Below, piece after piece: positions 23,408-28,347 of a stretch of 64,000 nt of DNA. Positions within the stretch are counted from its first letter, which is position 1; every line of letters starts with the position of its first letter. The position numbers and the translations under genes were made by a program. The stretch lies in contig VXRC01000049.1 in the NCBI GenBank assembly GCA_009838645.1, forward strand, positions 496,001-560,000, in the 5' to 3' direction. Under the pieces are notes generated by a model. That model saw only the letters and a list, made by a program, of their open reading frames with translations, was not told where the DNA came from and searched no databases. This stretch comes from Gemmatimonadota bacterium. Its GTDB lineage: Bacteria > JAAXHH01.

Positions 23408-24502
23408 CTACCGGAACCAGTCGTAGTTGAGCCCCAGCGAACGGTCTTCAAGGGGCAAATCGACGCGCACGCCGCCCCGCGCGGAGGAGCGTTTCAGGGC
23501 GATCTCCACTTCCAGCGCCATGACGACCCTGCGGCCCGAGTTCTTGGGCTCGTCCAGCTTCCCTGCCAGGCAGTCCATCACGTCGTTCAGCGAATACACA
23601 CCGCCATAGGGAGGCACGAACTGGGGACCCGGCCAGGGTACCTCCACCCGGTAGGGCCGGCCTTCCACCTCCATCTCCTCCCATCGCTGCCAGCCCGTTG
23701 GGAAATCGTAGGCCAGGTCGCCTTTGCTACCGTGCAGGCGCACGCCCGGCGCGCCCTTTCGAAAATGCACCACGAGGCCGCTTTCGGTCACCAACATGCC
23801 CTGACCCATGAATTCGTCGCTTCCCGATTCCCGCCGCGGTACATCGCCGGTTCCGATTACCCAGGCCGGTTCGCTGTCCACGAAATAGGACCAGTTCTGA
23901 TGCTGGGCGAAGGGCCCCGGGGCCTCGATCGACAGCAACTCTCCGATGCCGCCGTCGCGCACCAGGGCGCCGGCACGGGCGAAAGATGGATGGGTGGTGG
24001 CGATCGCGCCGCAGCTCAACGGCACGCCCGCTTCCGCGCAGGTCCGTACCATCCGGTCCGCTTCCTCCAGCGTATGGGCCATAGGTTTCTCGGTGAAGAT
24101 CCCCTTCGCGCCATGGTGAACGGCGAGGCAGGTGAAATCGGCGCGATGCTTGGTATTCGTCGCTACAGCTACGATGTCCGGTCGTTCGATGGCCAGCATG
24201 TCCCCGGCGTCGTCATAGAGGGATACGACGCCGTACCGTTCCCGGAAGGCGCGCAACCGTTTCACGTCCCGCTCCGCCGCCGCGACCAGTTCGACGTCCG
24301 GGCGGTCCCACAGCGCTTCGGCGTAGGAGGAAGGCAGCCCCTCCGTGCCCGGGTTTTCGTGGTAGTGGAAGCGCCGGTGGATGTTCAAATCGGGCGTCGG
24401 ACGATCGATGTCGTCCACATCCCACACGCCGGTCCTCTGCGCGAGATCGTACAGCATGCCCATCCACCCGAGACCGATGAGTCCTGCCCGGTACTTTGCC
24501 AC
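23408..24502 (-). CDS. Gfo/Idh/MocA-family oxidoreductase
   Basis: The 364-residue protein has an N-terminal Rossmann fold (G-L-I-G-L-G-W-M-G) and the E-K-P-M-A motif carrying the catalytic Lys, then the alpha/beta C-terminal domain. These NAD(P)-dependent enzymes oxidise or reduce sugars, inositols and related polyols. I place the start at the GTG at 24502, because AAGGAG (24509-24514) precedes it by six bases; an upstream ATG at 24535 lacks such a site and would overlap the Ldh2 gene. It is the last gene of an aldolase-dehydrogenase-oxidoreductase run. Confidence 0.9.
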   Translation of the reverse strand: MAKYRAGLIGLGWMGMLYDLAQRTGVWDVDDIDRPTPDLNIHRRFHYHENPGTEGLPSSYAEALWDRPDVELVAAAERDVKRLRAFRERYGVVSLYDDAGDMLAIERPDIVAVATNTKHRADFTCLAVHHGAKGIFTEKPMAHTLEEADRMVRTCAEAGVPLSCGAIATTHPSFARAGALVRDGGIGELLSIEAPGPFAQHQNWSYFVDSEPAWVIGTGDVPRRESGSDEFMGQGMLVTESGLVVHFRKGAPGVRLHGSKGDLAYDFPTGWQRWEEMEVEGRPYRVEVPWPGPQFVPPYGGVYSLNDVMDCLAGKLDEPKNSGRRVVMALEVEIALKRSSARGGVRVDLPLEDRSLGLNYDWFR

Positions 24503-24531
24503 GGAATGCTCCTTCGTGATAAGCGGATTCG

Positions 24532-25533
24532 TCAAAACGGCAACGGAACGTCCAGTCGCTCGCCCATCTCCCGTACGGTACGCTGTTCGATCTCGCCGAA
24601 CCGGATGCCCTGCTCCCGGTGGAGTGCCATACGTTCCTCTTCAATCGCACCGGGTAACAAGGCCTCGTCATATCCCGGCATGGGCTCGTAGGTTTCTCTC
24701 ACATCCCTTACGAAACGATCCACTTCCTTTTTGAAATCCGCCGTGGGAATCACCGTTTCGGTGTGAATGGCCAGAACCATGCCGCCGTGACCCGCGCCCG
24801 GCCACCGGACCTGTACCTCATCGGCCTCCGGCAGCGCGGCGCCGGCCAGCGCGCATCCCAGGACCGTGGCGACCGCCCCGTAACCGATGCTCTTGAAGAA
24901 GGCGGCCGGTATGCGGGACAGGAGATCGTCGAATTCGGGCGAATGCTGGTAATCGGCCAGGATGCGCGTGGCCACGTCCTGCACGATCGGAGGCTCGTCG
25001 CCGGCCGGAATCCCGAAGCAGAGCGGCGGATTGCCGAAGTAACCGATCTGGGGCTTCGGGTCCTGGCCGCGGGCATCCCCCATGTTGCGGTAACCCTGGA
25101 CCGAGAATCCGATGCAGCCCGACTCCATGCACATGCGGGTGTAGTGGCCCGCCGATCCATAGTGCCCGATATGCCGGGCCAATCCCATGCCCAGTCCGGT
25201 TTCACGGGCCTTTGCGATGGCGCCTTCCGTCGCATCCACCATGGGCCAGTACCCGAGCGTGCCGTCGCCATCCACGATGACGGAAGTAGGCGATTCGGCG
25301 ATGACCCGCACACTGGGCCGTGGATTGTGATGCCCCTCGGCGAAGGATCGCGTATAGCCGGATGCCGCGCGGACCCCGTGGCTGCGAACGCCTCTGAGGT
25401 CGGAGTTAACCAGCAGCCGGCTGATGATCGAGGCATGGTGGCCCGACAAACCCACCTTCTCGAAACAGGCCGTCGTGAAAGCCAGCAGGGATGTTTCATC
25501 GACATGGATGTATGCTTCCGGCGGACGGTTCAT
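24532..25533 (-). CDS. Malate/L-lactate dehydrogenase family (Ldh2) oxidoreductase
   Basis: The 333-residue protein belongs to the Ldh2/YlbC/AllD family of NAD(P)-dependent 2-hydroxyacid dehydrogenases, which do not use the classical Rossmann fold. Typical segments are D-L-R-G-V-R-S-H-G-V near residue 45 (containing the catalytic His) and a glycine-rich G-H-Y-G-S-A-G-H-Y near 122. AAAGGAAC lies seven bases before the ATG. Between an HpcH-type aldolase and a Gfo/Idh/MocA gene, it probably handles a sugar-derived 2-keto/2-hydroxy acid. Confidence 0.88.
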   Translation of the reverse strand: MNRPPEAYIHVDETSLLAFTTACFEKVGLSGHHASIISRLLVNSDLRGVRSHGVRAASGYTRSFAEGHHNPRPSVRVIAESPTSVIVDGDGTLGYWPMVDATEGAIAKARETGLGMGLARHIGHYGSAGHYTRMCMESGCIGFSVQGYRNMGDARGQDPKPQIGYFGNPPLCFGIPAGDEPPIVQDVATRILADYQHSPEFDDLLSRIPAAFFKSIGYGAVATVLGCALAGAALPEADEVQVRWPGAGHGGMVLAIHTETVIPTADFKKEVDRFVRDVRETYEPMPGYDEALLPGAIEEERMALHREQGIRFGEIEQRTVREMGERLDVPLPF

Positions 25534-25588
25534 CGATGGTTCCTTTGGATTTGCTGCGGTTGTATTTTCTGCAGTGTACAGGGCCGGA

Positions 25589-26314
25589 TCAGACCACCAT
25601 GGGCGTCTGGAGCACGGTCAGTCCCATGTCGATATACTTCTGCCGGTCCGATGGGTCCAGGAGCGCCAGGCTGACGGCGACGGACGTTCCCTCCATTTCC
25701 CGGGCGACGTGGCGGACGCAATCGTCCAAAGTCCGAAATGGCGGGTTCCGGTACCGTTCGATGTCGTACATGAGATCGTTGGGCCCGAAGGTGAGGACGT
25801 CTACGCCCTCCAGCGCCAGTTTCCGGCAATTGATGACCGCGTCGACCGATTCGAGCTGAAGCCATAGCACGCCCGTGTCGTTCCACCAGGCCGCATACTC
25901 GAGGCGGTCGTCACGACCGGTAATGCCGTGGCGCGCGCTGCCTCCCCAGCTTCTACCGCCGAACTGCGGATAGTAGAAGAAATGGACCGCTTCGCGCACC
26001 GTGGATTCCTCCCTGACTTCGGGAACGAGGATGCCCGCGGGCCCCAGGTCCAGATAGTTCCCGATCAGGTAGGTGTGCCGGGTATGCTTGATGCGCAGGA
26101 TCACCGGCACGTCCAACGCCTCGGCGGAGGCGCAGAAGGAAACGATCCGGTCCTCGCTCTGGGGGCCGTGCTGGCAGTCCACGTTGAAGAAATCGATCTC
26201 GCCCTGCTGCAGATACCGTTCCAGGTCCTCCCGGCCGGAATCCATGGATACCCCCAGGCCGGTCACGATTTCGCCGCTGCGGATGCGGTGTTTCAACGAG
26301 ATGGGCTGGACCAT
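25589..26314 (-). CDS. HpcH/HpaI-type aldolase family protein
   Basis: The 241-residue protein is a TIM-barrel class II aldolase relative that cleaves or forms 2-keto-3-deoxy acids. Visible are V-D-C-Q-H-G-P-Q-S-E with the base His, the R-I-K-H-T region, G-P-A-G-I-L-V-P-E-V with the metal-binding Glu, and Q-L-E-S near the barrel end. The start is the ATG at 26314 with AAGGGAG 10 bases upstream. It leads the run with Ldh2 and Gfo/Idh/MocA genes downstream. Confidence 0.86.
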   Translation of the reverse strand: MVQPISLKHRIRSGEIVTGLGVSMDSGREDLERYLQQGEIDFFNVDCQHGPQSEDRIVSFCASAEALDVPVILRIKHTRHTYLIGNYLDLGPAGILVPEVREESTVREAVHFFYYPQFGGRSWGGSARHGITGRDDRLEYAAWWNDTGVLWLQLESVDAVINCRKLALEGVDVLTFGPNDLMYDIERYRNPPFRTLDDCVRHVAREMEGTSVAVSLALLDPSDRQKYIDMGLTVLQTPMVV

Positions 26315-26337
26315 GGCGTAATGCTCCCTTCTTATCT

Positions 26338-26361
26338 TTACATCTTCGTCTATACCTTCGT
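26338..26361 (-). repeat. 12-bp tandem repeat at the methyltransferase stop
   Basis: The last codons and stop of the methyltransferase (ACGAAGGTATAG) are followed immediately by a 9-of-12 copy (ACGAAGATGTAA), which itself contains a second in-frame stop. Confidence 0.6.
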
Positions 26362-27093
26362 CAGTACCTGAAGTTGTACTGGTGTATCTACACGTATTAC
26401 AGCCGAGGGATGACGCCTCAGGGTTCGTTCGAGGCGGCGCCGGTCCGCGACGGGTATGTGCGCCTTGTCCCACCACCGGGCCCTGCACCGGTCGAACAGT
26501 TCCAGGCTGTCGAAGTAGTGCCGAAATACGAAATCGATGCGTGCACTTGACGCGAGCATTCGGCCGGCGACCGCCTCGGCCACCACCCGGTCCGCGAAAT
26601 GAAAGTCGACGTATTCGCGGGCCAGCGTGGCCACCAGGTTCACTTCATGGGCGACCTGGCAGTATACCTGCTGCCTCGCGTGCCGGCGTTTGCCAAGGCT
26701 TGCTGGGAAATACGGACGGATGTCGACGACCCGGCCACCGGGCTTCAGTACGCGAATCGATTCGTGAAGGGCATGCCCCATGCCCTCTTGTTGCACTCAT
26801 CACAAAGACCACGAGTACAGGGCCAGGTCGAAACTCCGGTCCTGAAAGGGCAGGCGGGACGCATCGGCCACGCCGAAGCGCGCGATGCCGTCCAACCGCT
26901 TCCGGGCATGAGCGCGCCCGACGTCCTCCCCGGCCTGGTCGACTCCGACGATTGATTCGATCCATCCCCTGATCCGGTTCGACAACCGGCCGTCACCGCA
27001 ACCGATGTCGAGGACGCGCGCGCCGGCAAACGGTACGTGCCGCTTGAGTATCCGCGTTTCCCGCCGTTCCGGATCTACTCGAACGCCTTTCAT
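26350..27093 (-). CDS. Class I SAM-dependent methyltransferase with two consecutive in-frame TGA codons (candidate selenoprotein)
   Basis: One reading frame of 247 codons runs from the ATG at 27093 to a TAG at 26350. Codons 98 and 99 (26802-26797) are both TGA. Before them lie methyltransferase motif I (VLDIGCGDGRL), an acidic motif II (VGVDQ) and motif IV (F-D-L-A-L-Y-S-W-S-L). Directly after them lies the canonical continuation (E-S-I-R-V-L-K-P-G-G-R-V-V-D-I-R-P), still in frame and intact to the end. A strong hairpin follows the TGA pair with SECIS-like geometry. Either both TGA codons encode selenocysteine at a site where relatives would carry Cys or His, or this is a young pseudogene. 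TGA is an ordinary stop elsewhere in the window. Substrate unknown. Confidence 0.7.
26767..26787 (-). promoter_or_regulatory. Candidate bacterial SECIS hairpin
   Basis: On the minus strand, AGGGCATG pairs with CATGCCCT around a GGG loop, with an extra G-T pair at the base. The loop begins 18 nt after the second TGA and 21 nt after the first. Known bacterial SECIS elements have a short apical loop with a G in the first two positions, about 16-37 nt after the UGA; this hairpin meets those rules. Confidence 0.55.
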
Positions 27094-27129
27094 GCCTCAC
27101 TCCTGCCTATCATGCCTCACTACCGCCTC
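27090..27129 (-). repeat. 20-bp direct repeat over the methyltransferase start
   Basis: Positions 27090-27109 and 27110-27129 match at 17 of 20 bases. The repeat duplicates the ribosome-binding and start-codon region (G-T-G-A-G-G-C-A-T-G-A), creating a decoy ATG upstream of the real one. Confidence 0.75.
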
Positions 27130-27145
27130 TACTGGTAACAGGCCG

Positions 27146-27230
27146 GACCGGAATTCGAGCCGGGCCGGGTTTTGCGCTGGTCTGGACATCATACCAGTCC
27201 GGATATCAGGTCGGTCCGGAAATCAGCCCA
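27146..27230 (-). repeat. Five degenerate 17-bp tandem units at a gene 3' end
   Basis: Units begin at 27146, 27163, 27180, 27197 and 27214, sharing a G-N-C-Y-G-G opening. The unit at 27214-27230 contains the last codons and TGA stop of the Gfo/Idh/MocA gene. Units 3 to 5 are clearest (GTCYGGANATCA core); the first two are more diverged. Confidence 0.7.
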
Positions 27231-28227
27231 GACCGGCCACCTCTTCGATCCCGACCCAACCGCTGGTTTCCTTCGACTGCTCTATGGCCAGTCCCGTGAG
27301 GTAGAGCCCCGCGGCCATCCTGGCGTCGGTGCGGTTCGGCGTGCCCTTTTCCACGGCGTCCAGGAAATCGGAGACGCACTCCGCCTCGCCGGGCCACCCG
27401 CCGACCACCGGCATCGCGGGCTTTATGCGCATCGTTTCGCCATCAGGACCGGACTTGCTGCGCAACTGTATCGTATTGCGAAAATAGTCGACGACCAGGT
27501 CTCCGTCGTCGCCGGTCACCTCGATCTTGGTCTCCAGCGTATCGACCGAGTCTATGTTCAGGTGGATCGTGCCCCAGAGGCCGCCGTAGTCGAAATGGAC
27601 CAGGCTGTGGAACTGTCGCCGGCCCGGCTGCCCGTGGCCGTCCATGACGAGCACCTTGTCCGGCGAACGGCCGATGATGCTGTTCAACCCGTCCACGTAC
27701 CAGGGTCCCAGGTGGTGAGCGAGGCACAGGTCCGGGCCGCCGAATTGCGCCCAGTTGCTTCGCAGTTTCAGGTGGACGGTCTGCGGCACGCCGACCGCGC
27801 CCTGCCGCAACAGTTCCGCGGCGCGGCGAATAACCGAAGCGTAGCCGATTTCAAGATCGCCGTGGGTGACCTGGTCGGCCGTGACCAGCCGCTTCAGCAT
27901 CCTGCGTATGCCGTCGGGATCGTCCGCGAGCGGAGGTTCGTAGTAGGCGGCGATCCCCGCGTCGAGGACGGCGTTCATGGCCGCTTCGTGGATGGCGTCG
28001 GGTATGGCCATCATGACGGCATCGAGCTCGGGACCGTCCAGCAATTCCTCGAAACCGCCATAGACCTGCACATCCGGATCCAGTTCCTCACGGATGCGAT
28101 CCTGGGACGCTTCGCTGAACGCCGCGGCGGAAACGATCACCACCCGGTCGTGCTGCCGCAGGGCGGGTACGAAGGCTATTCTGGACCAACCTCCATATCC
28201 AATCAGGCCGACGCGAACGCTGGTCAT
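27223..28227 (-). CDS. Gfo/Idh/MocA-family oxidoreductase
   Basis: The approximately 334-residue protein begins at the ATG at 28227 (a GTG at 28242 is an alternative) with the Rossmann motif V-G-L-I-G-Y-G-G. The E-K-P motif of the family is altered to Y-Y-E-P-P-L, so the usual catalytic Lys is missing at that place. That makes it either a diverged dehydrogenase or a non-catalytic relative. The C-terminal domain has D-G-H-G-Q-P and H-F-D-Y-G-G-L-W-G-T segments typical of the fold. It is 129 bases upstream of the methyltransferase on the same strand. Confidence 0.82.
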   Translation of the reverse strand: MTSVRVGLIGYGGWSRIAFVPALRQHDRVVIVSAAAFSEASQDRIREELDPDVQVYGGFEELLDGPELDAVMMAIPDAIHEAAMNAVLDAGIAAYYEPPLADDPDGIRRMLKRLVTADQVTHGDLEIGYASVIRRAAELLRQGAVGVPQTVHLKLRSNWAQFGGPDLCLAHHLGPWYVDGLNSIIGRSPDKVLVMDGHGQPGRRQFHSLVHFDYGGLWGTIHLNIDSVDTLETKIEVTGDDGDLVVDYFRNTIQLRSKSGPDGETMRIKPAMPVVGGWPGEAECVSDFLDAVEKGTPNRTDARMAAGLYLTGLAIEQSKETSGWVGIEEVAGLG

Positions 28228-28347
28228 TAATAGGTCTTTCACAGGATTACTTATCGTTTCACTACAGACGGGAATCGAAGTATATTACGACAATGAAAAT
28301 CGCCATGGATCGGTATGGCAAGCACTAAGTAATATGGAGACTCCGGC

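Follow-up and report, generated by a model that had tools for sequence, protein, structure and literature searches.

Can two consecutive in-frame UGA codons both be read as selenocysteine (Sec), and do they mark a functional gene at the locus considered here? The gene in question, predicted to encode a methyltransferase, lies on the minus strand of the 64,000-nucleotide stretch of Gemmatimonadota DNA that was analyzed (referred to here as the window), where it runs from an ATG at 27093 to a TAG at 26350 and spans 247 residues when both TGAs are counted. Codons 98 and 99, both TGA, are the only in-frame stops within it. An ordinary open reading frame (ORF) listing splits the gene into a 97-residue frame and a 148-residue frame, the latter with a GTG start, and automatic annotation would probably cut it in two as well, as the ATG-initiated frame in the window stops at residue 97. 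The features of the locus are collected in Table 1.

Table 1. Coordinates of the predicted tandem-Sec methyltransferase gene and its elements, as positions in the window
Feature	Position	Strand	Evidence
Predicted tandem-Sec class I SAM-dependent methyltransferase gene	26350..27093	minus	Open frame with TGA read as Sec; Pfam Methyltransf_11; orthologues
First in-frame UGA, codon 98 (putative Sec98)	26800..26802	minus	TGA in 14/14 orthologues and 49/51 Chloroflexota members; Cys codon in the other 2
Second in-frame UGA, codon 99 (putative Sec99)	26797..26799	minus	TGA in 14/14 orthologues and 37/51 Chloroflexota members; Cys codon in 14 of the 51
SECIS hairpin, 9 bp, GGG loop (26776-26778), within the coding sequence	26767..26787	minus	Fold; frozen synonymous sites; covariation; published bSECIS model

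The assignment to the class I SAM-dependent methyltransferases is based on a Pfam PF08241 (Methyltransf_11) match of 66.5 bits (cut-off, 21.2), together with the presence of motif I (DIGCGDG), an acidic residue (D52) after beta 2, motif IV, and a Rossmann-type fold; residues G31, G33, G35, D52, and D89 are invariant across 14 orthologues. A preliminary description of this DNA had claimed that the frame is continuous across tandem TGA codons at positions 98 and 99, after motif IV. Both claims hold, with exact coordinates: there is no further internal stop or frameshift, and the pair is placed directly after motif IV, within the consensus [AS]-W-[ST]-L-U-U.

While in-frame stops usually point to a pseudogene, the conservation of this gene argues against decay, as well as against an error in the assembly. 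The gene is present in 14 of the 16 genomes searched from the phylum, including all 9 of high quality, and each of the 14 orthologues (42 to 97% identical) carries TGA-TGA at the same place. Across this set, dN is much lower than dS on the upstream as well as the downstream side of the pair, indicative of purifying selection, and the sister species are free of frameshifts and decay, which bears out the doubt about a pseudogene already expressed in the preliminary description. With the pair and its register kept in 65 independent sequences from two phyla (see below), a pseudogene or assembly error is refuted and has almost no probability left.

A profile of the 14 orthologues was searched against 400 genomes of the Chloroflexota (the phylum of G384, the genome of L049), 46 of which turned out to be holders of the gene, with 51 family members among them, nearly all containing one or two in-frame TGAs. 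Read with TGA as Sec, the pair is Sec-Sec (TGATGA) in 35 members, Sec-Cys in 14 (8 TGATGC and 6 TGATGT), and Cys-Sec (TGTTGA) in 2. A tandem TGA shared by 14 of 14 orthologues and 35 of 51 Chloroflexota members lies well outside what chance would give. None of the 51 has Cys-Cys or any other residue at the pair; the search profile carried Cys at both positions, and a Cys-Cys member would therefore score equally. Three stop-free Chloroflexota matches with Glu-His at the pair were discarded as ordinary, other methyltransferases. Thus, where two ordinary residues had at first been expected in relatives, the family has Sec or Cys instead, at exactly these two positions. Sec giving way to Cys, and to no other residue, at each position is a classical indication that both are Sec sites, and since either position can be Sec in one member and Cys in another, the alignment shows both to be under selection as putative Sec/Cys sites. 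When the pair is masked for tree building, the two phyla separate into two sides with good support. Explaining the states at the pair then takes approximately 10 changes, so that Sec/Cys exchanges are recurrent, with the placement of some long branches being unsure.

Five Chloroflexota genomes contain two family members each, namely, G450 (L117 and L153), G593 (L112 and L154), G755 (L127 and L140), G473 (L120 and L141), and G773 (L107 and L138). In G773, one Sec-Sec member accompanies one Cys-Sec member, and in G473, one Sec-Cys member accompanies one Sec-Sec member, so that different forms coexist in one cell. The family distribution reported here is a sampled one: besides the 400 Chloroflexota genomes, it covers about 370 genomes sampled domain-wide from outside the phylum, in which only ordinary methyltransferases and no family members were found. 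Likewise, no full-length relative was present on the viral contigs or plasmids searched. Cys also occurs at the first position in some other class I methyltransferases (WTLCS in L036 and VFCSV in L089), which is not proof of kinship.

The same comparisons bear on a scenario of two cistrons, in which the tandem stop would terminate the first and translation would restart for the second at GUG codon 100 or AUG codon 105, as the two frames and the GTG start returned by the ORF listing might suggest. The internal stops of the 14 orthologues are, however, TGA in 28 of 28 cases, never TAA or TAG at either position; the terminal stops of these genes are 6 TAG, 6 TAA, and 2 TGA, and those in the Chloroflexota set are 19 TAA, 19 TAG, and 10 TGA. 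Moreover, the GTG at codon 100 is not constant (GTG in 12 orthologues and GTC in 2, with ATT or ATC predominating in Chloroflexota), a single methyltransferase domain would be split after motif IV, and in 16 relatives Cys codons replace TGA, leaving a continuous or single-TGA frame. We consider two cistrons very improbable on these grounds, and a continuous frame with Sec at the pair remains the preferred reading.

The genes needed for Sec insertion, selA, selB, selC (tRNA-Sec), and selD, are all found in the source genome. The tRNA-Sec (71.8 bits, TCA anticodon) is encoded directly behind selB (649 residues), while selA and selD score 492 bits (cut-off, 268) and 258 bits (cut-off, 125), respectively. 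The selD match (G000:C17:142344-143288, L069) is located inside an 881-residue open frame and may be fused to another domain. Some bacteria have reassigned UGA to an ordinary amino acid, but for this lineage such a reassignment is refuted by the normal use of UGA for termination in the window, where 6 of 12 neighboring genes terminate with TGA and all 12 are free of internal TGA; given also the Cys at these sites in relatives and the full Sec machinery, virtually no probability attaches to it. The Sec machinery and the gene tend to occur together. Across the phylum of the window, tRNA-Sec was detected in 13 of 16 genomes and selB in 14 of 16. The gene, selB, and tRNA-Sec were jointly not detected in G010 (87% complete), G012 has selB with no methyltransferase gene found, and G015 (85% complete, 1170 contigs) has the gene, with selB and tRNA-Sec not detected. 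Among the Chloroflexota, 42 of 46 holders had a tRNA-Sec match, versus 262 of 354 non-holders (p = 0.009). Incompleteness of the metagenome-assembled genomes can explain the holders without a detected tRNA-Sec, i.e., G015 and four Chloroflexota genomes.

Downstream of the pair, the stem of a 21-nucleotide hairpin, GAGGGCAUG-GGG-CAUGCCCUU, begins 9 nucleotides past the second TGA. It comprises 8 Watson-Crick pairs and 1 G-U pair, and its loop lies 18 nucleotides after the second TGA and 21 nucleotides after the first; pairs, start, and both spacings are exactly as the preliminary description had them. The published model of the bacterial SECIS (bSECIS) specifies a stem of 4 to 16 bp, a loop of 3 to 9 nucleotides with a G within the first two places, a UGA-to-loop distance of 16 to 37 nucleotides, and a minimum free energy of at most -7.5 kcal/mol (PMC13188914). 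The window hairpin, with its 9 bp, GGG loop, and spacings of 18 and 21 nucleotides, fits every one of these constraints and covaries, and in the family as a whole the energy limit is satisfied in 64 of 65 hairpins, the remaining one being weak (-3.4 kcal/mol).

The register of the hairpin is identical and gap-free in all 65 sequences (the 14 orthologues from the phylum and the 51 Chloroflexota members), and double compensatory changes were observed at 6 of the 8 core stem pairs. We counted 22 double-change cells, versus 4.1 +/- 1.7 after shuffling, with none of 500 shuffles as high; while this test is inflated by related sequences, slid control versions retain the relatedness and yet fail, with at most 60% of cells pairing, versus 93.4% in the true register. 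For the 14 orthologues alone, 48 of 500 shuffles were as high as the observed covariation, the stem scarcely varying there and the hairpin core being nucleotide-invariant in all 14. L022, a relative from another genus, shows a compensatory change from G-C to A-U in the stem. Synonymous sites are frozen as well: among the columns with an invariant residue, 4 of 6 inside the hairpin region have an invariant codon, versus 1 of 41 outside (Fisher p = 0.0004). The hairpin is, in short, a conserved, covarying RNA structure. Its loop reads GUC, GGG, GUU, GUG, or GGC across the 65 sequences. Like the SECIS of Escherichia coli fdhF, it is located just 3' of the UGA and within the coding region, and the apex of fdhF-type elements in E. 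coli, GGUC (PMC3834832), is also that of the commonest Chloroflexota hairpins. The fdhF element, however, serves one UGA, whereas the family hairpin stands behind two, and the loop in the phylum of the window is GGG.

Does this one hairpin serve both codons? Recoding of even a single UGA is only 30 to 40% efficient in E. coli (PMC4513850), so that tandem recoding should be costly, and SelB is not known to act twice on one hairpin. Both points would favor a reading in which only one UGA is translated as Sec, the other being read by a near-cognate tRNA or stopping most ribosomes. We regard this as improbable, since Sec and Cys alternate among the relatives at both positions, and since each spacing is found alone with the same hairpin, that of 21 nucleotides in the Sec-Cys members and that of 18 nucleotides in the Cys-Sec members. 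Because both spacings thus occur separately in nature, the simplest reading for the Sec-Sec members is that their two UGAs share this hairpin. We infer with high confidence that translation inserts two Sec residues and that one hairpin serves both codons. Mechanistically, a single SECIS hairpin would recruit SelB-GTP-Sec-tRNA(Sec) to the mRNA of a stand-alone class I methyltransferase, and this complex would decode both UGAs, first with the loop 21 nucleotides away and then with the loop 18 nucleotides away. Given that recoding of one UGA is already inefficient, the retention of two consecutive UGAs in both phyla implies that there is a strong reason for it in catalysis. With their shared hairpin, the Sec-Sec, Sec-Cys, and Cys-Sec forms amount to a natural experiment on how distant from its codon a SECIS may be and on whether SelB can act twice on one hairpin.

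Judging from these sequence comparisons, the methyltransferase very probably belongs to an undescribed selenoprotein family, the commonest form of which would have tandem Sec, with one SECIS for both UGAs. Haft and Tolstoy reportedly described double-selenoprotein methyltransferases in 2025; in the literature searched, which had neither that work nor subscription papers within its reach, no report of tandem Sec in bacteria was found. An inventory of prokaryotic selenoproteins from 2026, with 119 families and motifs including CU, UxxU, and UxxxxU, contains no adjacent Sec-Sec motif and no matching family (PMC13188914). Double-selenoprotein methyltransferases were compared through their entries in that inventory and through NCBIfam models. 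MduS (NF045649), MTase/UXPK-star (NF047649), ArsM/DUF2284 (NF041536), and ArsM/AhpD (NF041537) likewise combine a class I methyltransferase domain with more than one Sec per protein, but their Sec motifs stand apart (CxxU and UxxG, according to PMC13188914), and the proteins, at 283 to 459 model positions, are longer or are fusions. Against these models, the window protein scores 32.7 to 46.2 bits, with cut-offs of 380 to 575, and thus falls outside these families; scores of the Chloroflexota members are lower or similar. A vicinal chalcogen pair with at least one Sec also occurs in SaoL, SaoC, HgcA, KCU-star, and MbdU (CU), several of which are tied to metal or organometal chemistry (PMC13188914), but there it is Cys-Sec rather than Sec-Sec, and the folds are unrelated to that of the methyltransferase family.

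With seven close orthologues, AlphaFold gave no usable model (pLDDT 38.8). When distant methyltransferases were added, a class I methyltransferase fold was obtained (pLDDT 73.6, pTM 0.69), in which the core is good and residues 1-7, 134-138, and 160-167 are weak. The best PDB matches of this model are TleD, YcgJ, AtmM, and RebM, and small-molecule methyltransferases of these types, which have the same fold, are the closest PDB matches by both sequence and structure. In the model, the pair lies just past the strand bearing motif IV. In the sequence alignment, columns 98 and 99 match two histidines of RebM (3bus, chain residues 140 and 141), which are presumably catalytic, and Cys-His in TleD. 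While RebM-type O-methyltransferases have His-His after motif IV (Cys-His in TleD) and no selenium, the family described here has Sec-Sec, Sec-Cys, or Cys-Sec. Based on this alignment, the pair is probably located at the methyl-acceptor site, with the selenols facing the acceptor, and such an active site, probably with two selenols, would probably have an unusual chemistry.

Because selenols bind soft metals and metalloids strongly and are also strong nucleophiles, a metalloid, selenol, or thiol acceptor is the best guess. General chemistry and the alignment allow the tentative suggestion that the pair may bind or activate a soft acceptor of this kind, a role that we consider possible but rather doubtful. 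The main alternative is a redox-sensitive diselenide, and a regulatory or structural diselenide or a general base would also be possible. Taken as a whole, a widespread family with a vicinal selenol pair at the acceptor site and one SECIS decoding two consecutive UGAs seems likely. If true, this would mean natural protein diselenol chemistry and a SelB cycle run in tandem on one hairpin; neither is found in the inventory (PMC13188914) or in the papers searched.

Finally, the methyltransferase gene is part of a run of minus-strand genes (positions 23408-28242) that also encodes two Gfo/Idh/MocA oxidoreductases, an HpcH/HpaI aldolase, and an Ldh_2 dehydrogenase. The gene order around the methyltransferase is conserved in the genus only. 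In L054, a heavy-metal P-type ATPase-like protein is encoded downstream; it was given no weight, as it is absent near other relatives. Neighboring genes indicate no function for the methyltransferase, either in the window or in one Chloroflexota clade (L155-L159, L161-L163, and L165). In this clade, the gene is located close behind upp (uracil phosphoribosyltransferase), often with an MDR-type zinc dehydrogenase gene or a DUF1801 gene between the two.
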